A stretch of DNA of 51,146 nucleotides from Spirochaetales bacterium (lineage in GTDB: Bacteria; Spirochaetota; Spirochaetia; DSM-2461). The number at the start of each line of letters is the position of its first letter. Within the stretch, counting starts at the first letter, position 1. The stretch covers positions 1 to 51,146 of the forward strand of contig JAQQAM010000198.1 of NCBI GenBank assembly GCA_028532905.1, read 5' to 3'. A program made the position numbers and the translations under genes. Shown here one piece after another: positions 13,492 through 37,859 of the stretch. The notes beneath the pieces were generated by a model that was not told where the DNA came from, did not search any database, and worked only from the letters and a program-made list of their open reading frames with translations.

Positions 13492-13894
13492 TCTGTTACT
13501 TGCAAAAATGGAATCTCTCAGCCGCTGCATTCTCAGGATTGAAAGTAAAAGACCTGATAATAAAGAGATTTTAATTAATGATATTGATATTCAGGATATC
13601 ATAGCAGTTAATCTGGAACGTGCCGTTCAGCAATGTGTTGATACAGGACTCCATATTCTTAGTGACTATAATGGCTCTTCAGTAGATAGCATGGCAGATG
13701 TGTTCCTGTCTTTATCTGACAACAAAATAATCTCACAGGATTTGGCAAATAAACTGATTGCTGCTGTAGGCTTCAGAAATATTGCGGTTCATGAATACCG
13801 ATCCATAGACTGGAGCATTGTCTGGACCATAATCCATGATCATCTGATTGATTTCAGAGATTTCCAGAAGGCCGTTCTTAATCTTATCCCTTAG
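13481..13894 (+). CDS. hepT: HepT-like ribonuclease toxin (DUF86)
   Basis: RNIAVHEYRSID matches Rx4-6H motif; four-helix HepT pattern; partner of mntA. Confidence 0.88.
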   Translation: MEPDLLLAKMESLSRCILRIESKRPDNKEILINDIDIQDIIAVNLERAVQQCVDTGLHILSDYNGSSVDSMADVFLSLSDNKIISQDLANKLIAAVGFRNIAVHEYRSIDWSIVWTIIHDHLIDFRDFQKAVLNLIP

Positions 13895-14273
13895 CCAGAA
13901 AATCTGATGGAAGCATAATTCTGGCATCCTTTGGAAAGTGCTTCAGGTTACCGGTAATAAGAGAATCAGCTGAAGAAGCTTCCAGGATTTCATAGAACAT
14001 CCTGTCAAAAGGATCGGGAAAATCCCATTCAACATGAACTGGAGCGATAAAATCACTCTCCATACGTATAAAATCCATTAAAGGCAGAATGGACTCTTCT
14101 TTGAATCCGAACTTGGGTCTATGAAGAACATCCCAATACTCCAGCAGAATGCGGTTGTCCAGTTGAAGCTTCCAGCTGCCGGATAGTATTCCTTCCAGAA
14201 TTCGGGCAGGTCTCCCGGAAGGGTTGAGCAAAGCAGAGATCAGTACATTTGTATCCAGTACGATCTTTTTCAT
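13884..14273 (-). CDS. PIN-domain toxin
   Basis: MKKIVLDTNVLISALLNPSGRPARILE; SADSLITGNLKHFP. Confidence 0.88.
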   Translation of the reverse strand: MKKIVLDTNVLISALLNPSGRPARILEGILSGSWKLQLDNRILLEYWDVLHRPKFGFKEESILPLMDFIRMESDFIAPVHVEWDFPDPFDRMFYEILEASSADSLITGNLKHFPKDARIMLPSDFLAKG

Positions 14274-14276
14274 GAG

Positions 14277-14561
14277 TTATTCGGGAATTTGCCTTTCCCT
14301 GCGGGAGGCTGCAATTTCTCTATCGATCTCATCACTGCTGATGTCAATTTTCCGGGATGCCCACTGCATCTGTTTTACAGCAGCTTCTGCCCGGGCTTTT
14401 CGTACCGCCGAAAGGGTATCTTCGAGATCTGATTCTCCCAGAGGAGTAATAAGAGCTATGGGTTTACCGTTATTTGTCAATATCAACTCCTGCTCTTCGG
14501 GAAGAGTTTTCCAGACTTGAGCCGGTTTGGTGCGAAGATCCCTGACTGTTACAAATTTCAT
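14277..14561 (-). CDS. Phd/YefM-like antitoxin
   Basis: MKFVTVRDLRTKPAQVWKTLPEEQELILTNNGKPIALITP; 3 bp upstream of PIN gene. Confidence 0.85.
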   Translation of the reverse strand: MKFVTVRDLRTKPAQVWKTLPEEQELILTNNGKPIALITPLGESDLEDTLSAVRKARAEAAVKQMQWASRKIDISSDEIDREIAASRRERQIPE

Positions 14562-14696
14562 ATACCCCTCCTGGTTCTGATGTAATAAAAACAGAACCAA
14601 TTGTCACCCCTTTGTCTACAATAATATCTCTGGAACTATTTGAAAGCAAGGCTCCACCTGCCAAATGGAGAAAAAAGAAATTTTACTTAAAGTGGA

Positions 14697-15380
14697 TTAC
14701 TTCCGGCTGATTTTGATAATCAGAGAAGGATCTTCGGCAAAGATGTTTTCCAGTTTCCTGTGAACCTGTTGTACCTCCAGGAGGTTGTGCAGGCTGTGGG
14801 TGTAGCGGATATTGACCCTTTTGTGATCCGTCCGCAGGTCCATCATGAGAGCATCGCTGCCCAGGAATTCTTTTAAGAGTGTCAGAGAATCGGGATTGAA
14901 ACCGCTCTTTTTGACAGAGACTTTCACCTCGTAGTTCACCGTTGCCGGGGGAGCCATTCCCAGTTTGATTTTATTCAGAAAAAGCATCAGGAACCCTACA
15001 AAAAATGTAAGGATCAGGGCATGTATAAAGAAGGCCAGACCGCAGGAGATTCCCACCACAATTGCCAGGAATATAAAAGACATATCGATGGGGTTGCTGA
15101 CGGCAGTACGGAAACGGACAATGGAGACGGCACCCAAAAGGCCGAAGGCTACAACCATATTGGATGAAATCATCATCATGGCACCGGCCATGATCACACC
15201 GATGTAGATAATGGAATGCATAATAATATGGCAGTCTTCCTTATGGGAATTGAGAAGCTTGTAGGTGACTGCCAGAAGGAAATTGAGAACAAAGGCATAG
15301 CCCAGACGGAACAGGGAAGTCATTATGGTGAAGTCCTGTGCCTGGGAAGGATTATTCAGTATTTCCATCAGTTCGTTCAT
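14697..15380 (-). CDS. DUF4956 integral membrane protein (module 1)
   Basis: Multi-TM, VAFGLLGAVSIVRFRTAVSNPIDMSFIFLAIVVGISCG signature. Confidence 0.8.
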   Translation of the reverse strand: MNELMEILNNPSQAQDFTIMTSLFRLGYAFVLNFLLAVTYKLLNSHKEDCHIIMHSIIYIGVIMAGAMMMISSNMVVAFGLLGAVSIVRFRTAVSNPIDMSFIFLAIVVGISCGLAFFIHALILTFFVGFLMLFLNKIKLGMAPPATVNYEVKVSVKKSGFNPDSLTLLKEFLGSDALMMDLRTDHKRVNIRYTHSLHNLLEVQQVHRKLENIFAEDPSLIIKISRK

Positions 15381-16547
15381 TCAATCTCCTGTCAGGTCCG
15401 GTACAGGACCGTTGTTTACAAAAAAATCATACCAGCCGGGATCAGCCAGAATGCTATCAACCCGGTCTGACAAAAAGTCCTCTATATGCTGTTTCTCAGC
15501 TTCAAAGTCCGCGGCAGTAAGGTAAAACCAGGGTTCCGCCTGAACAGCGGTCTGCAGTTTATCATAAAGATTATCGGTATAGAGAGCCATATTCCCAATC
15601 AGATTCTCCTCACCCGGTTCCAGAAATAAGGCATTGAATGTATCTCTGTAGATGCGGGCATACGCATCGGACTCCAGCATCCGCCGGGTGAGGGCATTGT
15701 CCCCGCCCACAGGTGTGTACCGGTAGGTGTGATCATTGTCCCAGGGGAGGATGCGGTATTTGGCACCGGCATAGACATAAAAATTGGTCTCATAGGTGTC
15801 GGCCATGCCCAAAAAATCCCGGACCACCATATACCGGGCCAGATCTTCCAGATGAACATTCGCCTCTGCCCAGGAGATCCAGTCCGATTCACTCATATGG
15901 GCAGCGTTGACCAGATAGCGGTTTAAGGGGCCGAAATCATCGTCATCGGGAAATTTCTTTTCACTGAACTCTTCAGCAGGCACATTCTTCCCCAGATCAA
16001 AGCCTCTTATTTTATATAAGTGGCCCTTTTCTCCGAAGAAATCATCCACAGACTCATTGTAGAGGGGCAGAGAATTGTAATAGCCCATATACTCATCATT
16101 CAGATAGAGTGCTATGGGAGACATCTCAAGGTGAGGCAGTCCCGCCAGGTGATAGGTATACATGGCCAAAGCATAGGAGAGCCAGGGATCTCCCCCGGCA
16201 TCCAGAGCGATTTTATACTCCTCTCCGGTCTCTTCCCAGCGGAGGGTGTAGGACATTTTAGGGAGCATACGGCTGGTAAAGCCTCTGATGCGGAGTTCTC
16301 CCCTGCCCCCTCCTGTCGGCCCTTCAGGAACCTCGGCCGGTTCAAAACGGCAGGAGGCATAGGTCCCATAAGACAGGGAATCGGCCAGGGTACCCAGCTC
16401 ATCGTCGGATAAATAGAGACGGAAGGATTCCAGACCGGTTTCAGGACCATCAGTACTTCTAAAGCCGACAAACTCACCGCAGCCCGACAGGGAAAGGACT
16501 GCCAGAATCAGGAGTGTCAGAGTCTGACCTGCAGGCTTATGCCCCAT
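15381..16547 (-). CDS. CotH kinase-family lipoprotein (module 1)
   Basis: LAVLSLSGCGEF lipobox; TRMLPKMSYTLRW; YLNDEYMGYYNSLPLYNESV; YETNFYVYAGAKYRILPWDNDHTYRY. Confidence 0.75.
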   Translation of the reverse strand: MGHKPAGQTLTLLILAVLSLSGCGEFVGFRSTDGPETGLESFRLYLSDDELGTLADSLSYGTYASCRFEPAEVPEGPTGGGRGELRIRGFTSRMLPKMSYTLRWEETGEEYKIALDAGGDPWLSYALAMYTYHLAGLPHLEMSPIALYLNDEYMGYYNSLPLYNESVDDFFGEKGHLYKIRGFDLGKNVPAEEFSEKKFPDDDDFGPLNRYLVNAAHMSESDWISWAEANVHLEDLARYMVVRDFLGMADTYETNFYVYAGAKYRILPWDNDHTYRYTPVGGDNALTRRMLESDAYARIYRDTFNALFLEPGEENLIGNMALYTDNLYDKLQTAVQAEPWFYLTAADFEAEKQHIEDFLSDRVDSILADPGWYDFFVNNGPVPDLTGD

Positions 16548-20632: not shown

Positions 20633-22090
20633 TTACTTTATCCTTTTTTTGGCTTTCTGCAAGGATTTCCGCATATAGCGGTAAAAGAAATCATCTCTGA
20701 GCAGAAATAGCATGATGAAAAACAGAATGACGCTGAGTACTAGTTGTCCGGCGAATACAAGGAACAGAGGATACAGATCCTTCAGTGGATTCAGCATATA
20801 CCAGGGAAACAGCAGGACTGGTGCAGCCAACAGATACTTCAACTGGCTCCAGGCAAACAGGTTGATGGAAAACTTTCTGCTAGCATAAAGCAAACCGTAA
20901 ACTAACCCGGCAGACTCCGCCATAAGTGTAGCCGCCGCTGCACCGTTATGCTGCCAGCGGGGAACAAGAAGCAGATTGAAAACGATATTCGTTAGAGTCG
21001 TAACAATGGTCAGGTAAATCAGAATCCGGTCTTTATCCCGGGGCAGAAGGATCTGCTGGCGGACCACATTCAATACGGCGATCACCGGCACGGTCCCTGT
21101 CAGAATGATCAGGGATGTGACAGCGGGCAGAAGCTCCGGTTCAAAGAGAAGGAGAATAATATCCTCGGCATAGAGGAAGAGCCCCAGAAGTATGGGAAAG
21201 GAGAGCATAAGAATATAATTCATGCTAAAACGGTGCAGCTTATCCGAGTCCTTTTCTGCACCATTAGCCAGAATCTTTGTGATACGGGGAAAAATAATGC
21301 TGTTCATTGCAGTGAATACCTGCTGCAAAATCCGGGTCAACCGGAAACCGAGTGAGTAGTATCCCACATACAAAGGCCCCACAAGAACACCTGTAAGAGT
21401 TTTATCGATGCTGGAATTGATCATCCCCGTCACACTAAGAGCAAAAAGAACCAGAATGGGCCTTATATGCCGCCTCAGATTCAGATCTCGGAATTTCAGG
21501 TGGGGAATAACTCCCCTTATATTCACAAGACCCGTCGCCAGACCGGTCATGACGATGATAAGAGCATAAGTATGGCAGTTTTCACTTTCCCTAACCAGCA
21601 GGAGTATGGCAAGCACGTTGAGAAACTTGATGATCATGGAACGGAGAGCAATATACTTGAACTTCTGCCGGCCGATATAGAACCATTCGGTATTGAATAC
21701 ATTACCGGCGATCTGTATGGACAGAATTAGAAATACAGTTTGATGTTCCTTTGCAAAAAAAGGATAGAATCCGAGATAAAACACAAGAGAAGCCAGGGCA
21801 ACAGATATCAGCTGAATCGTGAAGATTTCAGTCGCAGACTGATCGATTCCCTCCCCTTCCTGCCGGGCGATTTCACGGGAGGCATATGTGGGAATGCCGA
21901 GCACCGCAGCCATGGTGAAATAGGAGATGATGGAATTAACATAATTGTAGATCCCGTAATTCTCCGGTCCTATTCTGTTCAGGACAAAGGGGAGGGTAAT
22001 CATGGGCATGGCCACATTGAGAACCGTTCTCATGAGGTTAAACAGATAATCAGAGAAAATTTTCTTCTTATTCAACTGGGATGAAGACAA
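20633..22090 (-). CDS. Polysaccharide/oligosaccharide flippase (Wzx/MATE-like)
   Basis: FDYLFNLMRTVLNVAMPMITLPFVLNRIGPENYGIYNYVNSI. Confidence 0.9.
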   Translation of the reverse strand: MSSSQLNKKKIFSDYLFNLMRTVLNVAMPMITLPFVLNRIGPENYGIYNYVNSIISYFTMAAVLGIPTYASREIARQEGEGIDQSATEIFTIQLISVALASLVFYLGFYPFFAKEHQTVFLILSIQIAGNVFNTEWFYIGRQKFKYIALRSMIIKFLNVLAILLLVRESENCHTYALIIVMTGLATGLVNIRGVIPHLKFRDLNLRRHIRPILVLFALSVTGMINSSIDKTLTGVLVGPLYVGYYSLGFRLTRILQQVFTAMNSIIFPRITKILANGAEKDSDKLHRFSMNYILMLSFPILLGLFLYAEDIILLLFEPELLPAVTSLIILTGTVPVIAVLNVVRQQILLPRDKDRILIYLTIVTTLTNIVFNLLLVPRWQHNGAAAATLMAESAGLVYGLLYASRKFSINLFAWSQLKYLLAAPVLLFPWYMLNPLKDLYPLFLVFAGQLVLSVILFFIMLFLLRDDFFYRYMRKSLQKAKKRIK

Positions 22091-22116: not shown

Positions 22117-23289
22117 TCAGTTTATGACCGAATTATAGACAGCCTGCAGGGAACGGACAACAGCTTCCTCGCTGTAATTATCGATACAATAGGATCTGAT
22201 AGCCGATGGATCATAGGATTCGGGATGATCCAGTACATGCTTGAGCCCCTTTGCCAGATCTTCACTATCTTCATTGTTCACCAGAATCCCGCAGTGCCGG
22301 TTCACAATCCGCCGGGGTCCGGCATTTGATGTCGCCACAAGGGGTTTGCCCATGGCGAGGGCTTCGATAAACACCACTCCGAAAGCTTCATCCCGACTGG
22401 CCAGAGAAAAGAGGCTGCACTCGGCCATAAGCCTCGGCAGCTCCTGCCGGCTGACAGCCCCATACAGTCTTGTTTTGCCTCTAAAAGAAGGGTCTTTGTG
22501 TTCCAGACTTTCAATCAGACTCTCCAGGTTCTCCCGTTCTGCGCCCTCTCCCCCAATCAGGAGCTCCACATCAGGATATTCGGAATGAATGCTATAAAAG
22601 GCATTGATCAGAAGATCAAAGCCCTTTCTGTATTTGAGATACCCCAGGGAAAAGATCCTCCGTCCCCCGGGAGCTGGATAATCGGAGGGATTGAAACCAG
22701 AAACATCCACCATATTAGGAATAACAGAAACCTCCCTTCCGGTTAGCTCCTTCAGATAGGAAGCTCCGCCGTCGCCCACAGCAATCAGGGCCGATGCCGT
22801 CCGGCCGATAAGCCTGATAATCCTGTTCTGGTAGGGCTTGAGAGAACGGTTTTCGATGCCCGAATAATGCTCTGTCAGAACATAGGGGATCTTTTTCCTC
22901 CGGCAGATCCGGGCCGTTCCGTATCCATGGGAGCGGAAGGAGTGGAGATGGATGAGGTCTATGGGACCTTCCGTCTTCTCGATTCTACGGATATGTCTTT
23001 TTAGTTTTCTGTAAACAAGCCACTCTTTTCCGCCAGGAAACTTTAAGAGAAGATTGTAGATCCGGCAGCGGTATTCGGTCAGTTGGGCCTGATTGATATA
23101 AAAGCCTGGTTTCCAGGATCTGCTTCTCAGATCTCCCGCAATTTTAGCAGCCGAACGGGTTTCCACATAAGCTACGGTGACCTTGTATCCGGCTTTCTGC
23201 AGGGCGATTCCCTGATCCCGGAAAAACACACCCGAAAGGTCAGCATCATTATTGGGGTACCAGGAAGGAACCATTACAATATGCTTCAT
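22117..23289 (-). CDS. Glycosyltransferase, GT4
   Basis: MVPSWYPNNDADLSGVFFRDQ; SLASRDEAFGVVFIEALAMGKPLVAT. Confidence 0.92.
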   Translation of the reverse strand: MKHIVMVPSWYPNNDADLSGVFFRDQGIALQKAGYKVTVAYVETRSAAKIAGDLRSRSWKPGFYINQAQLTEYRCRIYNLLLKFPGGKEWLVYRKLKRHIRRIEKTEGPIDLIHLHSFRSHGYGTARICRRKKIPYVLTEHYSGIENRSLKPYQNRIIRLIGRTASALIAVGDGGASYLKELTGREVSVIPNMVDVSGFNPSDYPAPGGRRIFSLGYLKYRKGFDLLINAFYSIHSEYPDVELLIGGEGAERENLESLIESLEHKDPSFRGKTRLYGAVSRQELPRLMAECSLFSLASRDEAFGVVFIEALAMGKPLVATSNAGPRRIVNRHCGILVNNEDSEDLAKGLKHVLDHPESYDPSAIRSYCIDNYSEEAVVRSLQAVYNSVIN

Positions 23290-24554
23290 AAATTCTCCCG
23301 AATCTCAAGAATGGCGTCTACAGACCTGGAGCCCGCCTCTCCCTGATGGCGGCAGGCATATACCTTCAATCGTTCAATATTCTCCTGAAGATGGGGGTCC
23401 ATGGTGAGTGTTTTTATTCTTTCAGGAACGGATGCGAGATCATCAGCATCAAAATGAAGAATGGCGCCGCTGTCCTTCACCATATAGTAGGGATTTTCCT
23501 CTTCAATATCCGACAAATCGAAGCCACGGGGGTCCAGATTGAAATTGAAGACCGCCACAGGCCGGGAAAAAAGAAAAATATAGTCGAACATAATGGAAGA
23601 AAAATCGGAAATCATGATATCCGATTGGGCCATGGCGTGAATGTTCTCCTTGTTAAAATCCCATTGAACATTTCCATAGGACGCAAGAGAAATTTTCAAT
23701 TCTTCCAGAATCTCTTTTTCGGAGATAGAACTCTGGGGATGGGGTCGGAGAATCAATTTCATGCCGCTCTCGGCCAAAGGCCCAAGCAGATCCATACCAT
23801 AGCGGCGCAGCAGGCCGTTGGGACCCCAGGATGGCGAAATGAGGATTGTAAAATCCTTATTTTCCGAAAGCTGAAGCACCTTTTTCTTCTCAAACAAACT
23901 GTCCAGGTAGGTGGAGCCGACAATCCTGAGATCCTTAAGGGGAGTGCCTCGCTTTTTCTCCAGTTCACGGATAATTCCCTCCTGATGGGGTCCGTTCAGC
24001 AGGATGGAATCGTAATAATCTATTCCGAAAAGCCTGTAGGTGGAGGTATTGTTCAGGTGATGGAGGATATGGCAGTAGTGCTTTACCCTCTTGGAGCGTT
24101 TGAACTGCAGGACATCCAGACCGGGCGTCGTAGCCACGCACACATCGGCTTCCAGAAAGTTCAGACGCATGTACGCCCTGTTCCCCTGTCCGATATAAGA
24201 GGTTTTCACCAGATCCGATTCATATTTTAATCCAGGGTCATCAGGATGAGCTGTCATATAGGCACAGGGTTCTCCCCTTTGTACCAGTTCATCCAGAAGA
24301 GGTTTAAACACCCCCCAGTACTGAGGCCCTTCGGAATAGAGAACCAGAGAATGCCGGGATGCCTCTCCTTTACCGGAGGGGGAGAAAAACTTAAGCTTCA
24401 TAATGACCTGTTTCAAAAGAAACCAGGAGGAGGCGATAATCCCGATAAGAGCGGACAGGAGCATACTGCCCGTGGCCGGGTCGATATAGGCAGAAACAGG
24501 AACAACCAGAATCAGAGTAAAGAAGATGATATAAAAAACTTTTCCGATCCTCAT
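23286..24554 (-). CDS. CDP-glycerol glycerophosphotransferase-family (TagB/TagF-like) protein
   Basis: LILRPHPQSS, MISDFSSIMFDYIFLFSRPVAVFNFNLDPRGFD; N-terminal YIDPATGS membrane segment. Confidence 0.82.
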   Translation of the reverse strand: MRIGKVFYIIFFTLILVVPVSAYIDPATGSMLLSALIGIIASSWFLLKQVIMKLKFFSPSGKGEASRHSLVLYSEGPQYWGVFKPLLDELVQRGEPCAYMTAHPDDPGLKYESDLVKTSYIGQGNRAYMRLNFLEADVCVATTPGLDVLQFKRSKRVKHYCHILHHLNNTSTYRLFGIDYYDSILLNGPHQEGIIRELEKKRGTPLKDLRIVGSTYLDSLFEKKKVLQLSENKDFTILISPSWGPNGLLRRYGMDLLGPLAESGMKLILRPHPQSSISEKEILEELKISLASYGNVQWDFNKENIHAMAQSDIMISDFSSIMFDYIFLFSRPVAVFNFNLDPRGFDLSDIEEENPYYMVKDSGAILHFDADDLASVPERIKTLTMDPHLQENIERLKVYACRHQGEAGSRSVDAILEIRENL

Positions 24555-27442
24555 TTCACGGTCCTCCAGTTTGCAGTATCCAGCATGCTCTTCTCGACCA
24601 TATAGCTTTTCCGGTGGATGTATTCGGCTGAACCATGATTGTAGATCAGGTTGGAACCGTCACCCACTAGAAGAGGTCCTTCCTTGGCAGAAGAATCCAG
24701 GGGCTTCCCCGTATAAGGATTATCAGCACCTCCGAAGGCTTCCAGCAACAGCTCAGGGGTATCTGCATTGGTCATAAAGGCCTCTGAAGTGCCTAAAAGT
24801 CCCCGGCTGCCGAAGGGTTTGAACAGCATGAGGGGATGAAAGCCCACATACTCGGGGGCATGATCCCCCCCGGGGTCTTCTGAAAAATAGGGATCGTACA
24901 CCCCCTCCCCCGCCCGTCCATGATCGGAAACAATGAGGATCTGAGTATTGTCGTACAGACCTTCGGCTTTGAGCCAGTCCAACCAGTCCGCCAACTTATT
25001 GATCACAGCCACATTGGTATAGATATGGGCGGCAGAGTTTTTACTGCCGTAGAGAGCCAGATCTTCTTCGGGGTAATCTATTAGGGAGGTGACCGCTTCA
25101 AAATCGGCATTGACAGCAAGCACCTCATGGGAGGCTTTATTGCCGATGATGCTGAAGGTCGGCCCTCCCTCGTCGGGGGCCATAAGAGCGGGAAGCCAGT
25201 CCAAAACCGCCCATTCCTTATAAAAACTCAGGGCGTTAAAGAGATTGGCATAGGTCTCATAATCAGGATTATCTTTGTTCAGACTGTGCCAGTTTCCGTC
25301 GTCATAGATTTTCCGACGGACATAACGGGGAGCCATACGGAACAGGGAGAACTGAAACAGGGATTTATCCCGCATCAGAATCTTTCCGAAATCAGAGGGA
25401 ATGTCGTGGGAAGCCAACCAGGAAGCCTGTACTCTGGATAAATCATCCCGTTGAATACCCATTTCATCAAAAACGGAAAGATCTGCGGTGTCCAGATTGA
25501 ATCCCTTATGGAGGGGATTGGCCATATACACCCTGTGATTCCTGTCAGAAAACAGTCTGGGCAGAACCATGACTCCTTCAAAGGCTTTTTTCTTCAGAGA
25601 TTCCTCCGGCCGGGCCGCCATTCCCTGGGGTGTATACTCATAGCCACCCAGCATGGCCGGGAGGGAGGTTATGGTATTCACACCGAAGCTCAGGGTGTCA
25701 GGATACCAGGTAAATCCGTCATAACGCTCCTCCAGCTCGGGAAATGCCTCCAGTGCCAGAGGTAGTGCCCCTGCCAAAGCTCTGTCTGAAAACAGGATGA
25801 TCGTATTATGAGCCTTCCGGGAAAGAGGAATGGCGGGTTCTACCGCAAGCAGATCTGTTCCGGCAGGGGCTTCTTTCCTGTCCGATCCACTGAGAGCCAG
25901 ACCGTTATATCCGGTCATAGCCAGGAGGGAGACCAGAAGGAGAGTGAGAAACTGCCTGAAACGGAAGAGCTCCGTTTTGAGAAAGACTCCCAGAAGGAAG
26001 AGCCCCATCCCTCCCAGTACCGCAAGGTTCAGCAGAACAGCGGGCTTGGGATCATGCACAAAGCCGAACTCAAACTGAAGGGACTCCGATATGACCCCGT
26101 AAGAGCCCGGAAAAAAAAGAAAATTCAGCACACTCCCACAGGCGACAACAGCAGTCAGATACACCACAGCTTTTCTGTAGGTAGCCGGCAGAGCGTAATA
26201 TAAAAAGAGAGGCACCAAAGCGAATGAGAAAAAGGCCCAGAGGAGAACCTGAATAATCAATGCCAGGCCGATCTGCATTTCATAAGGAGAACTGGCGGCC
26301 AGAGCCGTGGGAACAACCAGTCCCGCCAGTACGGTCAGCACAGCCAGTGAGGTCAGAAACACTGCTCCCTCGGTCTTACCTGGAGCGGTGAACATTTGCG
26401 CTTTATTCAATAAAGAGGGCAGAAAACACAGGACGATGATCAAAAAAAGATTCACAATAAGATCCTGAGGGTCCTGAACAAAAGGATTGCCCCAGAGCTG
26501 GACCAGAGCAGCAGCTCCGGTTGTCAGGAGTCCCACAGAGATCAATCTGGTTAGAAAATTTCCTTTATACTCAGCCAAAAAGTAAAGCAGAGCCGGAACG
26601 GACAGAATCAATGTACAAAAATAGGCTCCATAGACCAGAGCGACGGTGACAGGGTTTTTCACAAGATAGTAAAGTCCCACGCTCCCGCAGACATAGAGTA
26701 CGGCAGCAGCAGGGAGCCACAGAGGGGCTTTTATCTTCATCAAAAGATGTCCGCTGTACCGGTTCAGCCGCTCTGAGACCGGCACACCTTCCCACCGAGA
26801 GAGGAGATTCTTGACCAGTGAAATGAAATTATTGCAGCTCCAGTACAGAAGCAGCCCCGAAGGAGCCGTATACAAGAGGACGAAAAAAAGCCCTGCCATT
26901 ATAAACAGCTGAATTTTCCCCGATCTGGATTGCCCTGAAGAATAAACAGAGGCGGATGCCAGATTCAAGGCGGTCATAACAAAGGGCATCAGGTTAATCA
27001 TACCAAAGGTCCCGTCGGGAACCGAAAGATCCTTTAGAAACAGAAACCCTTCGCCCTGCAGGGGTTCAAAGCCCGAAAGAAAACGGTAAGCGGCTATAAA
27101 AAAGGGTATCTGAATAAGCATACCGAAGCTGGAACGGATGGACAGCAGAGGGGAATAGCCGTTCTGCCGGTAGAGGGTCTTTAGATAAAAATACTGTTCA
27201 TCCCCCTTGAACACCTCCCTGATGTCCTTTCTCCGGGGGGCCATGCGGTCCAGGATAAGCCTCTCCTCCTTCTGCCAGGTATCGGCCAGGGCAAAAAAGG
27301 GATAGATCAGCACATTGATGACCGCACTCATCATCAGGATGGACAAACCATAATTGCCCGTCAGTTCATAAGAAGCCGTCAAAACACGGTTCAGCAGGGA
27401 AACGAGGGGGGCTATCAGCATTTGAAACAGTATATGAAGCAT
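24551..27442 (-). CDS. YidC/Oxa1-like insertase domain fused to multi-TM region and C-terminal LtaS/sulfatase-like domain
   Basis: N-term YGLSILMMSAVINVLIYPFFALADTWQKEE...APSGLLLYWSCNNFISLVKNLL (YidC); C-term HNTIILFSDRALAG...QILIVSDHGRAGEGVYDP...GGDHAPEYVGFHPLMLFKP. Confidence 0.82.
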   Translation of the reverse strand: MLHILFQMLIAPLVSLLNRVLTASYELTGNYGLSILMMSAVINVLIYPFFALADTWQKEERLILDRMAPRRKDIREVFKGDEQYFYLKTLYRQNGYSPLLSIRSSFGMLIQIPFFIAAYRFLSGFEPLQGEGFLFLKDLSVPDGTFGMINLMPFVMTALNLASASVYSSGQSRSGKIQLFIMAGLFFVLLYTAPSGLLLYWSCNNFISLVKNLLSRWEGVPVSERLNRYSGHLLMKIKAPLWLPAAAVLYVCGSVGLYYLVKNPVTVALVYGAYFCTLILSVPALLYFLAEYKGNFLTRLISVGLLTTGAAALVQLWGNPFVQDPQDLIVNLFLIIVLCFLPSLLNKAQMFTAPGKTEGAVFLTSLAVLTVLAGLVVPTALAASSPYEMQIGLALIIQVLLWAFFSFALVPLFLYYALPATYRKAVVYLTAVVACGSVLNFLFFPGSYGVISESLQFEFGFVHDPKPAVLLNLAVLGGMGLFLLGVFLKTELFRFRQFLTLLLVSLLAMTGYNGLALSGSDRKEAPAGTDLLAVEPAIPLSRKAHNTIILFSDRALAGALPLALEAFPELEERYDGFTWYPDTLSFGVNTITSLPAMLGGYEYTPQGMAARPEESLKKKAFEGVMVLPRLFSDRNHRVYMANPLHKGFNLDTADLSVFDEMGIQRDDLSRVQASWLASHDIPSDFGKILMRDKSLFQFSLFRMAPRYVRRKIYDDGNWHSLNKDNPDYETYANLFNALSFYKEWAVLDWLPALMAPDEGGPTFSIIGNKASHEVLAVNADFEAVTSLIDYPEEDLALYGSKNSAAHIYTNVAVINKLADWLDWLKAEGLYDNTQILIVSDHGRAGEGVYDPYFSEDPGGDHAPEYVGFHPLMLFKPFGSRGLLGTSEAFMTNADTPELLLEAFGGADNPYTGKPLDSSAKEGPLLVGDGSNLIYNHGSAEYIHRKSYMVEKSMLDTANWRTVK

Positions 27443-27466: not shown

Positions 27467-28567
27467 TCAGCGCAGAAGGAGAGCACGAAACTCTTCAGGG
27501 TTGTCCAGGGGCCTCGGATTATTCTGCAGACGCTCCAGGTTGACAGAGGCCAGAAAGTCCTCAAATACAGCATCCACATCAATCAGTTGGGCCAGCCGGG
27601 GCTCCAAAGCACAGCTGCGGATTATGGTGCTTACTTTTTCAGCTGCCTCTTCGGCATTCTCCGCCTGAAGAAGGGGGAACAGCCCTTCCAGCCTCCCTCC
27701 CCTGCTGTTGTAAAGGATAAAGGGGATGAGCATCAGGGCAGCAGCATAGCCATGGGGAATCCCGAAACGGGAAGTCAGATAATAACTGAAGGCATGGGCT
27801 CCTGTTGTTTTACTGATATTGATGGCCTGTCCCGCCAGATTCGCTGCCCTCTGCATCCCCTCGCGGTTTTTCAATGAGCCGGATTGAACCGATGGAATCA
27901 GATGCTCCAGGGTCAGAGCCATTGACTTTTCCGCAAAATTACGGGACTCAGGATTGGCATTGACACTCCACCAGGATTCTACAGCCTGGGACAGCGCATC
28001 CAGTCCCGATACAGCCGCCTGTTGAGCGCTCATGGACAGGGTCAGGGAAGGGTCCAGAACAACGATGGACGGAAGAAGCTCCGGATGGGCCAGGGAATAT
28101 TTGATCTTGTTCACATAAACAACGGCGAAATGGGTCGATTCACTCCCGGAACCGGAGGTTGTGGGTACAGCGATCAATGGAAGGGAAGACAGGGATTCCA
28201 GTTTTTTACGACCTGTAACAAAATCTTCCGGATTCCCATCACAGGCAGCAAAGGCTTTTAGGAGTTTGGCCATATCCAGAACACTGCCCCCTCCAACAGC
28301 CACAATCAGATCAGCCTTCCGGCAGAGGGGCAGCCCTTTCTGCAGGTCTTCCAGACGGGGATTGGTCTCAAAATCGGAAAAGCGGACAATCTCACAACCC
28401 GCAAAGATCCGCTCGATCTCCCGGGAGGCACCACAGGCCTCGTAGGATGCCCGGCCTGTGACCAGCAGGACTGTACGGCAGGATGGAAAATCCTCCCCGT
28501 GAAGCTTTTTAAGAGGGACAGACCTGATATCCTGAGTCACAAAGCCTCCTGAAAATTGAGACGACAA
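27467..28567 (-). CDS. Iron-containing alcohol dehydrogenase, probable phosphonoacetaldehyde reductase
   Basis: VAVGGGSVLDMAKLL, PTTSGSGSESTHFAV, FGIPHGYAAA; position next to phosphonate genes. Confidence 0.8.
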   Translation of the reverse strand: MSSQFSGGFVTQDIRSVPLKKLHGEDFPSCRTVLLVTGRASYEACGASREIERIFAGCEIVRFSDFETNPRLEDLQKGLPLCRKADLIVAVGGGSVLDMAKLLKAFAACDGNPEDFVTGRKKLESLSSLPLIAVPTTSGSGSESTHFAVVYVNKIKYSLAHPELLPSIVVLDPSLTLSMSAQQAAVSGLDALSQAVESWWSVNANPESRNFAEKSMALTLEHLIPSVQSGSLKNREGMQRAANLAGQAINISKTTGAHAFSYYLTSRFGIPHGYAAALMLIPFILYNSRGGRLEGLFPLLQAENAEEAAEKVSTIIRSCALEPRLAQLIDVDAVFEDFLASVNLERLQNNPRPLDNPEEFRALLLR

Positions 28568-29652
28568 TTCAGAGCCGAAACTTTCGGCCGGCCCAGGTCA
28601 TCCCGGGAGCCCTTAGCCACACGAAGCTCCACAAAGGTCATTCCCCCTTTCTGATCCAATACTGTATTCAGAACCTTCTGTAGAGAATCTCTGCTATCAC
28701 AGCTTAAGCAGCGCTCATATCCGGCAGCCTGTGCCAGTGCAGGCCAGTCGACTCCGCCGGCCACCGTGGGCTGGCCCCCGACAGTATCATGGGAACCGTT
28801 ATTGATCATAATGTGAAGGAGGGGCAGATCCTGAAAACTGCCGTTCACAGCCAGGGAGCCCATATGCATGAGAACCGACCCGTCTCCGTCCAGACAGCAA
28901 AGGGGCAGATCCGGCCGGGCCAGCAGCGCTCCCAGGGCAATCTGGGAGGTGTGCCCCATAGAGCCTACAACCAGAAAATCCTTGTTATGAACCTCCCCCC
29001 GGGCATCCCGGTGCTCATACAGTTCTCTGGAAATCTTACCTGTAGTGGAAACAAAGCGGTATTCCTCAGGGAGTGTTTCAAGAATTGTACCGATGGCTTC
29101 TTCCCTGTTTAAGGATGAGATATCCGCAAGGGGTGTCTCCAGTTTACAAGAGGAAAAACTCCCCTTTCTCACCACCAGGGCAAAGGGTTTGTCCTGGTTC
29201 AAAGCCTCCTGGGCTTCCTGAAGGATTGCGGTATAATCGCTGTCGGCGTCCATTACCCTGTAGGGAATGCGCATGCACTCCAGAAGGGGAAGGGTCAGTT
29301 CTCCCTGGGTGACGTGCTGGGGCTCATCCTTAACACCCGGCTCACCCCGCCATCCAATAATAAAGAGGACAGGCAGCCTGTAAACAGCCTTGTCCATAAG
29401 AGAAAGGAAAGGGTTAACGATATTGCCCAATCCTGAGTTCTGCATATAGACGCAGGCGGGTTTGCCTGAGGCTATAGTATGACCTGCCGCCAATGCCAGG
29501 GCGTTCCCCTCATTAGCGGCTATGATATGTTCGTTTTGAGCCTTGGTATTGCTTAAACGGGCACAGAAATTCTTCAGCAGGGAGTCGGGAACTCCTGCAT
29601 AAAAATTGACAATTCCGTCCAGAGCGGTACTGAAATCTACTGTATTAATCAT
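28537..29652 (-). CDS. aepY: Phosphonopyruvate decarboxylase
   Basis: FYAGVPDSLLKNFC, ANEGNALALAAGH, CLDGDGSVLMHMG, NNGSHDTVGGQPT. Confidence 0.92.
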   Translation of the reverse strand: MINTVDFSTALDGIVNFYAGVPDSLLKNFCARLSNTKAQNEHIIAANEGNALALAAGHTIASGKPACVYMQNSGLGNIVNPFLSLMDKAVYRLPVLFIIGWRGEPGVKDEPQHVTQGELTLPLLECMRIPYRVMDADSDYTAILQEAQEALNQDKPFALVVRKGSFSSCKLETPLADISSLNREEAIGTILETLPEEYRFVSTTGKISRELYEHRDARGEVHNKDFLVVGSMGHTSQIALGALLARPDLPLCCLDGDGSVLMHMGSLAVNGSFQDLPLLHIMINNGSHDTVGGQPTVAGGVDWPALAQAAGYERCLSCDSRDSLQKVLNTVLDQKGGMTFVELRVAKGSRDDLGRPKVSALNCRLNFQEAL

Positions 29653-29667
29653 GAAACCTCCAATGAA

Positions 29668-30960
29668 TCAGGTAATGAGAGAGATAATCTCTTTGATGGG
29701 CATGCAGTGTTCATCCGCCTCTTTGGCCCTCTGATGCTCCAGAATGGATCTGGCGGTCTGCTCCATAACGGGATAGGCAGATCGCAAGAGATGGTTGGCA
29801 TAAATCACAATGGAGATGCCCTTTTCCGAGAGCTCCTTTTCTGTGATATGGGAGTAGGTGCTGGGTACGGCGACCAGAGGGACTTTCTGTTCAAAGGCAG
29901 TAAATCTGTCGCAGAACTCGAAGAGCATGACAGGTTCCTTCTCCTTGCTGTGGATCATGATCCCATCGGCACCAGCCTGGATATAGGCTTCGGCACGCTC
30001 CAGAGCATCTTCCACGCCCATTCCCAGATTCAGGCTTTCAATGCGGGCAATAATCATAAAATCTTCGGTAATTTGGGATTTTTTGCCTGTCTGAATTTTA
30101 TGACAGATATTCTCTATGGAATCCTGCTTCTGCAGATCATCCGAGTCAAAGAGGGAGTTTTTCTTGAGACCCGTTTTATCCTCGATAATAACTGCAGAGA
30201 TTCCCATCCGCTCCAGAGTCCGCACGGTATAGGCGAAGTGCTCAGGGATACCCCCGCTGTCCCCATCGTAGATAATGGGCTTGGTGGTGGTTTCAAGAAT
30301 ATCGTTTATGGTATTCATCCGGCTTGTGACATCCACCACCTCGATATCCGGCTTGCCCTTGTTGGTTGAGTCGGTGAGACTGCTCAGCCACATGGCATCG
30401 AACTCAAGGAGCTGTCCCTCTTTTTTCACTGAGGTTTTTTCTACGATCAGACCGGTCAGACCGCTGTGGGCTTCCATCACCCGAACCACATCCTTGGCTT
30501 CCAGCAGGCGGCGCAGCCGCTTAAGCCTGACTTCCGGGGTCGTCCCCACTTCTTTGAGGGCTCTGTTGAGCTTGGTGCTGGAGATGCCGGGGGTATAGGT
30601 CGGTTCGATCAACTCTCCCCCCCACTCTTTGAGGGTATCGATGACCCGCTGTCTGGTCTTTTTCTGGACCCCTTCCTTCCAGTCGTCTCCGTGGACCACA
30701 TAATCGGGCCTCAGTTTCAGCAGGTTGGGAACATAATCCAGAGTATCCTGGGGAATGACCCGCTCTACCCCTTTGAGGTTCTCCACAATGGTCTTTCTCT
30801 GTTCATAGGCCATAAAGGGAAGCCGTTTGTAACTGGCAATGGCTTTATCGGTCAAGACACCGACAGTTACCTCTCCGTATTTGGCGGCCACCTTCAGAAT
30901 ATTCAGATGCCCCGGATGGATAAGGTCGGCACTCATGGCTACATATATCGTCTTTTTCAT
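29668..30960 (-). CDS. aepX: Bifunctional cytidylyltransferase-phosphoenolpyruvate mutase
   Basis: N-term HPGH and ISSTKL nucleotidyltransferase motifs; C-term [12 protein letters not shown] (PEP mutase EDKxxxKxNS). Confidence 0.92.
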
Positions 30961-32862: not shown

Positions 32863-34428
32863 TTAAAATGAGTAAGCAACACCGGTCTCAAAGTGAAAAT
32901 GGAGTACATTTTCCCGCCAGACCCAGTTTTCATTGAGAGTATACAGGAGGCTTGCTTTTCCGTACAGGTTCCAGTCTCCCAGGAAGTAAACCGCATCCAG
33001 ACTGACATCATTATCAATAAACTGACCAAAGGTTGATCTTTTGTAATCGGGATCATTTATCACCACATTATAGAAATAGTCGCTGTCCCAGCAGACCCGA
33101 GTATACTCCAGACCGATTTTACCCAGATTGTGGTAATAAGAAACATTCACCCACTGACTATTGGAACCAGGGCCAATCCAGGCTCCGGGACTTTGGCCCT
33201 TATGAGCATACCCTTGAGTCCATCCAGCCCAACCATGCCGGTACCAGGGACCTGCCGGACGAACATTGGTGGTTCTGGTCTGTGCCAGATTGGCATGTTC
33301 AAAAGAGAAAACCAGCCTCTGACCGGGATTCCACTCTTTTAAGATCTGGGAGACTCCCAGAACCTGAGCAGATGTATGCTCGGGGCTGGTTATGGGATGG
33401 GTATAATCATTATTGGCCCACTCACCGTACACAGTGAAACCCACACTCGGAAACTTCCAGTCAAAGGTCAGGGCAATCATACCGTCTTCATCATCTTCTG
33501 AACCGGGTTTATTACTGCTGAAAATGGGCACCGCAGCAATCAGGTCAAGAGCATTCCAGAACTGATTGGGTTTGTAATACTGATGAACAGCTCCCAGGCT
33601 CAGTCCGGGCACAAAAGAGGGAGCCCAGGCGACAGCCAGTCCGGAAAACCAGGCCAGATCATTATCGGGATTAGTATCATAATAGTCGGATTCTTCCAGC
33701 CACCCCCAGAAGAAACGCCCTTCAAAACTTCCCAGCTTCCAGATTTCCTGTGGGCGATAAGTTCCCAGGTCAAAGTGGGGAAAACCTCCTGCATTATTAC
33801 TGAGCATAATATTATTCTGCCGTCCCGGTCCCAGAGTCACTTCCTCGGTTGAAAAACCGAAGGTGACATACTCTTGCCAGTAGAAGCGAATATCACTCTG
33901 CCCCCAGTCAAAAGCGTAGAGGAACTCGTCACCCTGTCTCTGAAGCCGGTCGTAGTCCCGGCCGCTCCACCAGTCTCCCCAGCCGGAACTGACGTTGGTG
34001 GAGACAATATCAAAGTCTGAATTCTGGGCCCACCAGAACTGGGGATAAAGGCGGATGGAATACCAGTCGTTCATCCAGTCCATCCCGAAGGAGGTGACAT
34101 TATTAAATCCCTTACCCTGCCAGAGGGCGCCGTCGTTCCGGCCCCATGCTTTGAATGTGTTATAGGAGAAAAAAGTTTCGGGATCTATGAGTCTCAAAGT
34201 CCCCAGAGATGTCTCCACCAGGGGAGAGGCATATGAACGCCCGCCCCAATCAAATTCACTCCGGGCGGCATCCGTACTGTAACTGTGATAAATCAATGAA
34301 GTGGAATCCTGATTCCCTGCCAACTCATCATAATACAGAAAATCATCATAGATACCCCGAAAGGACATATCCGCAGACAGAAAACCGGAAATAAACAAAA
34401 AACCCCACAAAAATATATTACGCTTCAC
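32863..34428 (-). CDS. Capsule assembly Wzi-family-like outer-membrane protein
   Basis: Signal peptide, long aromatic-rich barrel; GTG start at 34428 with GGGAG SD preferred to ATG at 34440. Confidence 0.6.
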   Translation of the reverse strand: MKRNIFLWGFLFISGFLSADMSFRGIYDDFLYYDELAGNQDSTSLIYHSYSTDAARSEFDWGGRSYASPLVETSLGTLRLIDPETFFSYNTFKAWGRNDGALWQGKGFNNVTSFGMDWMNDWYSIRLYPQFWWAQNSDFDIVSTNVSSGWGDWWSGRDYDRLQRQGDEFLYAFDWGQSDIRFYWQEYVTFGFSTEEVTLGPGRQNNIMLSNNAGGFPHFDLGTYRPQEIWKLGSFEGRFFWGWLEESDYYDTNPDNDLAWFSGLAVAWAPSFVPGLSLGAVHQYYKPNQFWNALDLIAAVPIFSSNKPGSEDDEDGMIALTFDWKFPSVGFTVYGEWANNDYTHPITSPEHTSAQVLGVSQILKEWNPGQRLVFSFEHANLAQTRTTNVRPAGPWYRHGWAGWTQGYAHKGQSPGAWIGPGSNSQWVNVSYYHNLGKIGLEYTRVCWDSDYFYNVVINDPDYKRSTFGQFIDNDVSLDAVYFLGDWNLYGKASLLYTLNENWVWRENVLHFHFETGVAYSF

Positions 34429-34440
34429 AGTGACTCCCAT

Positions 34441-34502: not shown

Positions 34503-35591
34503 TTATCGTTCTGTATAATTCTTTTCCATCCACTTCCTGTACTCGCCAGACTTGATATTCTCAATCCAGGCCCTATTGTCCAGATACCAGCGGACGGTTT
34601 TCTTCAGTCCCTCTTCAAAATCCAGAGACTGGGTCCATCCCAGCTCATTCTTGAGCTTATCACAGTTGATGGCATAACGCTGATCATGACCGGGACGGTC
34701 TTTTACAAAGGTGATCAGATCTTTCAGATCCTGTACCTCTTTACCTGCTTCAGAGGCCACCACCTCACAGAGTGTATTCACAAGGCGGATATTCTCCCAT
34801 TCGTTCTCCCCGCCGATATTATAGGTTTCTCCCAGCTTTCCGCCCTGCATTACAGCCCAGACCGCTGTGTTATGGTCTTCCACAAAGAGCCAGTCCCTGA
34901 TGTTCTTACCATCTCCGTAGACAGGAAGAGGTTTACCTTTGAGCATATTCTCAATCATCACAGGAATTAGTTTTTCCGGAAACTGATAGGGGCCGTAATT
35001 ATTGGAACAGTTGGTCATGGTGACAGGGAGACAATAGGTATGGAAATAGGCCATCACCAGATGATCAGAAGATGCTTTGGATGCAGAATAGGGACTCCTG
35101 GGATCATAAGGAGTTGTTTCATAGAAATATCCTGTGTCTCCCAAGGAACCATAGACTTCATCTGTTGAGACATGGTGAAAGAGTTTCCCTTCAAAATCCC
35201 CAATCCAGGCTTTCCGGGCAGCATCCAGCAAGGTAAAGGTACCGTTCACATTGGTTCTGATAAAGGCCTCAGGACCTTCGATGGAGCGGTCTACATGACT
35301 TTCGGCGGCCAGATGACAGACAGTGTCGATGCCATACTCATCAAACAGTCCTTCTACAAACGCCCTGTCGCAGATATCACCCTGTTTGAAGATATAGCGC
35401 TCTGGAAAAGCAGCGGCCACATCATCCAGTGAGGCGGCATTTCCGGCATAGGTAAGCTTATCCAGGTTGATTACCCGGCCTGTAAACTCAGGGTTATTTA
35501 ATAAAACCCGGATAAAGTTGCTGCCGATAAACCCGGCTCCGCCGGTGACCAGTATATTCTTTAAAGTCCTAGAGGATGTCATCTTTTCCAA
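34503..35591 (-). CDS. rmlB: dTDP-glucose 4,6-dehydratase
   Basis: LVTGGAGFIGSNFIR; STDEVYG; YSASKASSDHL. Confidence 0.95.
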   Translation of the reverse strand: MEKMTSSRTLKNILVTGGAGFIGSNFIRVLLNNPEFTGRVINLDKLTYAGNAASLDDVAAAFPERYIFKQGDICDRAFVEGLFDEYGIDTVCHLAAESHVDRSIEGPEAFIRTNVNGTFTLLDAARKAWIGDFEGKLFHHVSTDEVYGSLGDTGYFYETTPYDPRSPYSASKASSDHLVMAYFHTYCLPVTMTNCSNNYGPYQFPEKLIPVMIENMLKGKPLPVYGDGKNIRDWLFVEDHNTAVWAVMQGGKLGETYNIGGENEWENIRLVNTLCEVVASEAGKEVQDLKDLITFVKDRPGHDQRYAINCDKLKNELGWTQSLDFEEGLKKTVRWYLDNRAWIENIKSGEYRKWMEKNYTER

Positions 35592-36444
35592 TTCCTTTCA
35601 TAAACGTATTCAAAGAGTCCTGCCAGCGGGGTACATCATACCCCAGCACAGTGCGAACCTTATTCTTATTCAATAGCGAAAAAGCAGGCCTTTTGGCAGC
35701 TGTAGGGAACTCATCGGATGTACAGGGATTCAGGGCACAGTCGGATTCAATCAACCCGGATGCTCTTCCTAAAGTATAGATTTCAGAAGCAAAACCGTGC
35801 CAACTGCATTCTCCTTCTCCTGACAGATGATAGGTTCCAAAAGAAGTAGAATTATCAATTACAATCTTCTTTATCAGTCCGGTTAAATCTCGTGTCCAGG
35901 TGGGGGAACCGATCTGATCATCCACAACTTTTAAAGTTTCAAGCCTGTTCATCAGCCCTACCATGGTATACACGAAATTGGGCCCATATTGACCATAGAG
36001 CCAGGCGGTACGGATAATAAAGTGTTTATTGCAGATTTTCCTGACGACATCTTCCCCTACCAGCTTGCTGGCACCATACACTCCAACAGGTCCGGTGGGT
36101 GCGTCTTCATCCAGTGGCATAGAACTGCTGCCGTCAAAAACATAATCAGTTGAAATAAGAAGGAGAGGAACATCCAGAGACGCAGCTACACGAGCAATAT
36201 TCTCTACTCCATTCTTATTTATCAGATAAGCGGTCTCCTGATCCTCTTCCGCCTTATCCACAGCCGTATAGGCCGAGCAGTTAATGATAAAAGAGATATC
36301 TTTCCCAAAAGCAAAATCTTTCATAACCTCCGGTTCCAGAATGGAAACCTCTTTATCGGTTCCGATAAAATCAATGCCGGCTTCAGAGAATTCCCTGCTC
36401 AAATCCTGACCAAGCATTCCAAGATTTCCAATTATCCAAATCAT
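35569..36444 (-). CDS. rmlD: dTDP-4-dehydrorhamnose reductase
   Basis: MIWIIGNLGMLGQDL; INCSAYTAVDKAE; STDYVFDG. Confidence 0.94.
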   Translation of the reverse strand: MIWIIGNLGMLGQDLSREFSEAGIDFIGTDKEVSILEPEVMKDFAFGKDISFIINCSAYTAVDKAEEDQETAYLINKNGVENIARVAASLDVPLLLISTDYVFDGSSSMPLDEDAPTGPVGVYGASKLVGEDVVRKICNKHFIIRTAWLYGQYGPNFVYTMVGLMNRLETLKVVDDQIGSPTWTRDLTGLIKKIVIDNSTSFGTYHLSGEGECSWHGFASEIYTLGRASGLIESDCALNPCTSDEFPTAAKRPAFSLLNKNKVRTVLGYDVPRWQDSLNTFMKGIGKDDIL

Positions 36445-36986
36445 AAAGACAGATCCTTAAGGTAGGGAAGCTGAGCATCTTTACCAGAGAGAAGAGGATC
36501 TCCCTCCAGTGGCCAGGGAATAGAGAGATCCGGATCATCCCATTTCACCCCCCCATCAACTTCAGGAGCATACTCAGCTGTGCATTTATATAGGAAATGG
36601 GTATTATCTTCCAGAGTCAGAAAACCATGACCGAATCCGGGAGGAATATAAAACATAGTATTATTCTCTGCTGTCAGCTCAATACCAACATGCTTGCCAA
36701 AGGTAGGAGAGCCTGGAATCAGATCCACTGCTACATCCCAAACGGCTCCAGCCAGGACTCTTACCAGCTTGCCTTGAGCATGGGGAGCCGACTGAAAGTG
36801 CAGTCCACGGAGAACACCCTTACAGGAAAAGGAGTGGTTATCCTGACAAAACTCCTCAGTAATACCGGCAGATACAAAATCACTTTTCTTATAGGTTTCC
36901 ATAAAAAAACCACGGTCATCCCCGAACTTCCGTGGTTGAATGATCACAACTCCCGGAATGGAGGTCTCTTTAAACTCAAAAGGCAT
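36441..36986 (-). CDS. rmlC: dTDP-4-dehydrorhamnose 3,5-epimerase
   Basis: GVVIIQPRKFGDDRGFFMETYKK; GVLRGLHFQ; YIPPGFGHGFLTLED. Confidence 0.95.
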   Translation of the reverse strand: MPFEFKETSIPGVVIIQPRKFGDDRGFFMETYKKSDFVSAGITEEFCQDNHSFSCKGVLRGLHFQSAPHAQGKLVRVLAGAVWDVAVDLIPGSPTFGKHVGIELTAENNTMFYIPPGFGHGFLTLEDNTHFLYKCTAEYAPEVDGGVKWDDPDLSIPWPLEGDPLLSGKDAQLPYLKDLSL

Positions 36987-37859
36987 CTACTCTCCCCTCT
37001 CCAGAATATCCAGCAGATACTGGCCATATGAGGATTTTGCTAATGCATTAGCCAAACGGGCAAACTGATCTCTGTCGATAAAACCCTGACGATAAGCAAT
37101 TTCTTCAATACAGGCAATCTTGAGCCCCTGACGAGCTTCAATAACCTCTACATACTGGGAAGCTTCCAGAAGACTCTGGTGAGTCCCTGTATCCAACCAG
37201 GCAAAGCCCCGGCCCATAAGTTCCACCTTAAGCTCACCCCGCCTGAGGTACTCTTTATTTACATCGGTAATTTCCAGCTCCCCTCTGGGAGAGGGCTTCA
37301 GCTTACAGGCCATATCCACTACCTGGTTATCATAAAAATACAAACCGACAACCGCATAGTTCGATTTAGGAACAGAAGGTTTCTCTTCTAAAGATAAAAC
37401 CTTTCCGGAAGAATCAAACTCAGCCACCCCATAACGCTCAGGATCTTTCACATAATATCCGAATACAGTAGCTCCGCTCTCCTGAGAGGCGGCAGATTGC
37501 ACCATCTTGGCAAAGTCATGCCCATAAAAAAGGTTATCTCCCAGCACCAGAGCACAGGAATCATCTCCGATAAAATCCTTACCAATGATAAAGGCCTCGG
37601 CCAACCCGTTGGGAGCATCCTGAACCGCATAGGACAAAGAAATCCCCAAATCTGAACCATCCCCCAACAACTCCTCAAAACGAGGCGTATCAGCTGGAGT
37701 CGAGATAACCAGGATTTCTCTGATCCCTGCCAACATAAGAGTCGACAGTGGATAGTAGATCATTGGCTTGTCAAAAATTGGGAGTAACTGCTTACAAATA
37801 GATCTTGTTGCTGGATAAAGACGTGTGCCGGAGCCTCCGGCTAGGATAATAGCTTTCAT
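36987..37859 (-). CDS. rmlA: Glucose-1-phosphate thymidylyltransferase
   Basis: [39 protein letters not shown]. Confidence 0.96.

Follow-up and report, generated by a model that had tools for sequence, protein, structure and literature searches.

Transferases of the LtaS/EptA/MCR-1/PbgA family carry an alkaline-phosphatase (AP) superfamily ectodomain behind a transmembrane (TM) module, with a Thr nucleophile and a set of metal ligands, and we know of no member with a YidC-fold or TagF-like partner. TagF-family enzymes (TagF/TarL) modify membrane-bound acceptors from the cytosol. YidC, known as an insertase and chaperone (PMC7618853), also scrambles lipids in vitro, as do its relatives (PMC10491306). 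Headgroups are activated as CDP-choline in the Lic pathway (LicA–LicC), of which LicD is the known transferase, and as CMP-aminoethylphosphonate (CMP-AEP) by PntC in the Pnt (phosphonyl tailoring) pathway. The acceptors of CMP-AEP are presumed to be carbohydrate or lipid nucleophiles (PMC6697681).

Here we analysed a 51,146-nucleotide stretch of Spirochaetales DNA (the window), in which one 963-residue open reading frame (24551..27442, minus strand; ATG start, no internal stop) encodes a YidC–AP fusion protein, called FUS below. FUS has the AP fold, the Thr nucleophile and the metal ligands of the LtaS-type enzymes, and probably a TM module like theirs before the ectodomain, but a YidC-fold module and a dedicated TagF-like enzyme accompany it, either within one chain or as neighbouring genes. 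This family membership, the TagF-like partner and neighbouring genes of CDP-ethanolamine-like or phosphonate type together make FUS probably part of the machinery that places such groups on surfaces. Our main reading, with a probability of roughly 0.6, is a three-module system in which FUS forms the envelope side and which attaches small phospho- or phosphono-alcohols to surface glycans or glycolipids.

The YidC–AP fusion protein and its family

The original prediction of an N-terminal YidC/Oxa1 domain followed by TM helices and an AP-superfamily ectodomain was borne out at both ends of the chain. Residues 31–214 (26801..27352, minus strand, as are all FUS features below) match PF02096 (E 2e-22) and have sequence matches to solved YidC chains; in a structure model, this part superposes on Bacillus halodurans YidC (3wo6) with a target TM-score of 0.75 and an rmsd of 3.3. 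The model, built with 14 sequences, has a mean pLDDT of 68.7 and a pTM of 0.56, and its linker at residues 218–355 is unreliable. Within this low-confidence stretch, hydropathy indicates extra hydrophobic segments (residues 239–347; 26402..26728) that vary within the family. Hydropathy and model helices delimit the TM module at residues 356–524 (25871..26377), with five hydrophobic helices as in LtaS and EptA; fewer were detected in two relatives. The ectodomain (residues 546–850; 24893..25807) matches PF00884 (E 1e-9), and the fold matches of its model include LtaS, EptA, MCR-1 and PbgA as well as phosphonate monoester hydrolases.

Across 93 distinct full-length relatives aligned with each other, the predicted nucleophile Thr590 (25673..25675), the predicted metal ligands Asp840-His841 (24920..24925) and residues D553 and H772 are all invariant (93/93), which we take to be the residue set expected for an LtaS/EptA-type transferase. 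The site is intact and of LtaS/EptA type, and catalysis is predicted from this conservation. Of two motifs originally quoted for the ectodomain, SDHG belongs to the invariant metal site; GGDHAPEYVGFHP does not, as its H861 falls in a gappy, variable column, and the GGDH motif is ruled out as a conserved metal site. The sulfatase formylglycine motif C/S-x-P-x-R is not present in any of the 93 fusions, all of which have Thr at the nucleophile position; this rules out a classical sulfatase.

The YidC module has kept the fold, the hairpin layout and the clear PF02096 match of YidC/Oxa1 insertases but differs in its groove. Asn43 (27314..27316) aligns with the groove Arg/Lys of YidC (R366 in Escherichia coli), the residue to which the original prediction had pointed. 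Neither Arg nor Lys occurs there in any of the 93 fusions (51 Asn, 19 Ser, 19 Thr, two Gln, one Ala and one gap), whereas the housekeeping YidC proteins of fusion genomes have Lys (21) or Arg (6). Polar positions including N204 and K211 are instead nearly fixed in the fusions and different in housekeeping YidC. When 35 sampled fusion YidC domains were placed in a tree with 30 housekeeping YidC proteins, the fusion domains formed one group (support 100/100, stem 2.2). Judging from these alignments, the fusion YidC has retained the fold but lost the charged insertase groove. A second, housekeeping YidC is encoded on another contig of the source genome, and a separate housekeeping YidC was present in 30 of the 30 fusion genomes checked, which rules out that FUS serves as the housekeeping YidC.

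A genome scan recovered fusion relatives in Treponema, Clostridia, Lachnospiraceae, Saccharofermentans, Bacteroidales and Desulfovibrio piger. Using an ectodomain profile, we found the fusion in 19 of 139 Spirochaetota genera (66 of the 296 genomes sampled). Several copies per genome are common, and nearly all are ORFs of about 900–1,000 residues. It was also present in 8 of 245 genomes of the clostridial class that includes locus L005, and in 1 of 198 genomes in each of two other phyla, in both cases the genome already known. Because the same fusion recurs across several phyla, FUS is not an assembly artefact or a chance join. The YidC–AP fusion is a real, widespread and large family, rare outside Spirochaetota and the clostridial class. 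Tandem copies occur in some genomes (loci L005 and L063), and up to five YidC–AP matches were seen in one genome (G078 and others of genus g51). One copy (G295:C81:42010-43245) has an in-frame TGA and is possibly a pseudogene or a sequencing error. The open-licence literature yielded nothing relevant on YidC–sulfatase or YidC–TagF fusions, which is weak evidence of novelty.

The TagF-like partner and rearranged modules

Immediately downstream, a TagF-like transferase of 422 residues (23286..24554, minus strand) overlaps the fusion gene by 4 bases (ATGA, 24551-24554), as first noted; among relatives, a 4- or 1-base overlap recurs in 16 of 33 adjacent same-strand pairs. The TagF-like family is assigned by its PF04464 match, conserved residues and co-occurrence with the fusion. 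It shares its C-terminal half, with RPHP (RPHPQ in this family) and SDxS motifs, with TagF, TarL and Cps3D, to whose structures it gives weak profile matches (8qoy, 8va1 and 3l7i), but it is short (~420 residues) and has an invariant N-terminal hairpin motif of YIDPGTG type (YIDPATGS in the window). Of 71 loci, 46 have a TagF-like gene no more than 1.5 kb from the fusion; 25 lack one at that distance, some of them at contig ends. Among the 296 Spirochaetota genomes, 66 have the fusion and 66 the TagF-like gene; 63 have both, three the fusion only and three the TagF-like gene only (Fisher p ~1e-56, a value that ignores the relatedness of the genomes).

This near-total co-occurrence bears on whether the two proteins might oppose each other, with cytosolic decoration of glycan precursors by the TagF-like enzyme and, outside, editing or removal of headgroups by the AP domain as a hydrolase. 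The cytosolic action of TagF-family enzymes on membrane-bound acceptors would fit such a division of labour, as would the phosphonate monoester hydrolases seen among the AP fold matches. However, the Thr nucleophile and LtaS/EptA-like ligand set point to a transferase, and co-occurrence this close to perfect suggests that both proteins are needed for one output. We regard an editing hydrolase as improbable and favour two enzymes of one decorating pathway.

Besides the YidC–AP fusion with a TagF-like partner, the modules occur unfused, as an AP protein with a YidC–TagF fusion, and as a single AP–YidC–TagF chain; ORFs in many of the compared loci were called mechanically. In the three TagF-only genomes, fusion-type YidC and/or AP genes stand unfused beside the TagF-like gene. 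In two of these loci (L178 and L179), a fusion-type YidC with a groove Asn is encoded on its own next to the TagF-like gene, and the same stretch has PEP mutase, decarboxylase and cytidylyltransferase–PhnW genes. A separate AP gene adjoins the TagF-like gene in L178 and in L180, which is cut at the contig end; in L179, a similar-looking 634-residue ORF without a Pfam match lies beside it. The clostridial loci L174 and L176 encode a YidC–TagF fusion next to an AP gene; in L175, phosphonate genes follow YidC–TagF, with no AP match in the ORFs upstream of it. A third clostridial layout (L145, 5696-10126) unites AP, YidC and TagF in one 1,477-residue chain, again followed by phosphonate genes. Its YidC has Lys at the groove position and falls outside the main fusion group in the tree, on a long branch, which suggests a separate recruitment. 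Between the AP and YidC domains of this chain lies a weak CBM-like match.

Four arrangements of the same three modules, and their co-occurrence across genomes, make it very probable that they form one system. The joint role first proposed from the ATGA overlap is supported by co-occurrence, by operon overlap and by natural fusions that unite all three modules. These arrangements also weigh on a simpler account of FUS as an ordinary EptA/LtaS-type transferase that draws its headgroup from bulk phospholipid, with the YidC domain only aiding insertion or folding of its own TM region or of partners. The AP fold and residues do match LtaS and EptA, and assisting membrane proteins is what an insertase and chaperone such as YidC is known for (PMC7618853). 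Yet the groove Lys/Arg has been lost in 93 of 93 fusions, such an enzyme would need neither a dedicated TagF-like partner nor CMP-headgroup enzymes, and elsewhere YidC is joined to TagF, not to AP. An ordinary transferase is thus unlikely, if slightly less so than an editing hydrolase, and we continue with the three-module system.

Headgroup-activating neighbours and the glycan cluster

Upstream of the fusion gene and also on the minus strand, the window encodes an iron-containing alcohol dehydrogenase of phosphonoacetaldehyde reductase type (27467..28567; PF00465, best NCBIfam match TIGR03405, below cut-off), a phosphonopyruvate decarboxylase (28537..29652; TIGR03297, over cut-off) and a cytidylyltransferase–PEP mutase fusion of Fom1-like layout (29668..30960; PF01467 and PF13714, TIGR02320 over cut-off). 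Positions 28537-30960 therefore hold PEP mutase, decarboxylase and cytidylyltransferase, the gene set of Pnt clusters. In the fosfomycin route, Fom1 makes CMP-hydroxyethylphosphonate (PMC6697681). The window layout resembles that route, so that CMP-hydroxyethylphosphonate is the likely donor here.

The remainder of the neighbourhood is a glycan cluster. On the minus strand, it includes a GT4 glycosyltransferase assigned by ORF and domain match (22117..23289), which overlaps the TagF-like gene by 4 bases, a Wzx/MviN-type polysaccharide flippase (20633..22090; PF01943) and the dTDP-rhamnose genes rmlB, rmlD, rmlC and rmlA (34503..37859). A 525-residue cluster protein (32863-34440) has no Pfam match at E 1e-4. 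On either side of the cluster is a protein of the CotH-kinase family (15381-16547 and 37978-39243). A DUF4956 membrane protein lies at 14697-15380, and two short ORFs (13884-14600) by eye resemble a PIN-type toxin and its antitoxin.

The original prediction had linked FUS to lipid-linked or CMP-activated substrates, and activating enzymes are indeed common near the fusion: 32 of 71 loci have at least one of four types within 8 kb, and 39 have none. At this distance we counted PEP mutase in 13 loci, cytidylyltransferase–CobD-like fusions in 12, and cytidylyltransferase–PhnW and cytidylyltransferase–choline/ethanolamine kinase fusions in six each. The genes near the fusion apparently yield four kinds of cytidylyl-activated headgroup, namely those of the choline/ethanolamine-kinase and CobD types, aminoethylphosphonate and, in the window, hydroxyethylphosphonate; possible products of the CobD-like branch are CDP-ethanolamine and CDP-aminopropanol. 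Three loci (L079, L081 and L160) have a gene of EutH, a family of ethanolamine transporters, beside cytidylyltransferase–choline/ethanolamine kinase fusions and YidC–AP genes. Enzymes for CDP-choline or CMP-AEP activation, as in the Lic and Pnt pathways, thus adjoin fusion and TagF-like genes. From these gene neighbourhoods we infer, with good confidence, that the system's substrates are cytidylyl-activated phospho(no)alcohols.

The phosphonate link is not peculiar to the window, given the 13 of 71 loci above and the Spirochaetota genomes that have both genes: in 11 of these 23, no more than 12 kb separates PEP mutase from a fusion. Random placement predicts 0.43, in a test that ignores the general clustering of glycan genes and treats related genomes as independent. 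Within 40 kb, the count rises to 17 of 23. Some of this proximity could reflect general clustering, since every one of these genes belongs to a glycan cluster.

The variety of headgroups also argues on whether the system builds a teichoic-acid-like polymer instead of single decorations. TagF and LtaS, relatives of both enzymes, are polymerases, and the hydroxyl of hydroxyethylphosphonate could in principle allow polymerisation; by contrast, such an ester chain cannot be formed from choline, ethanolamine or aminoethylphosphonate, the headgroups that neighbouring genes apparently supply in other genomes. A polymer is therefore very unlikely, which leaves single decorations as the preferred product.

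A proposed relay and the Pnt transfer step

Gene content suggests how such decoration could proceed. Neighbouring enzymes would make a cytidylyl-activated headgroup, in the window CMP-hydroxyethylphosphonate, and the membrane-anchored cytosolic TagF-like enzyme would use this CMP donor to load the headgroup onto a membrane acceptor. On the outer face, the AP domain, with Thr590 and its LtaS/EptA-type metal site, would move the headgroup from the lipid-linked intermediate to a surface glycan. More speculatively, the YidC-fold module may join the two sides, by docking the TagF hairpin and/or by offering a groove through which the lipid headgroup crosses. We tentatively propose that the YidC fold may here have given up protein insertion and serve instead to deliver lipid headgroups: in a trans-membrane relay of a kind not described before, its groove would pass a cytoplasmically charged lipid-phospho(no)alcohol from the CDP-dependent transferase to the AP transferase on the outer face. 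By analogy, lipid scrambling by YidC and its relatives in vitro (PMC10491306), together with the loss of the insertase charge, lends some support to such a lipid conduit.

Many bacteria make CMP-activated phosphonates, and the enzymes that transfer them to surfaces are a missing step, the acceptor being only presumed in PMC6697681, whose main text mentions neither YidC nor sulfatase. The fusion/TagF-like system is a candidate for this step of the Pnt pathway. Treponema denticola, whose PntC has been characterised (PMC6697681), encodes a PntC identical to PDB 6pd1 over 616 residues; its PEP mutase, decarboxylase and PntC genes lie at ~1.456–1.460 Mb and its TagF-like and fusion genes at ~1.478–1.482 Mb. 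With specific candidate proteins named, including those of T. denticola, the transfer step becomes testable. The family also provides a natural case of a YidC fold that lacks the insertase charge yet remains under strong constraint, which bears on the idea that insertases also move lipids.
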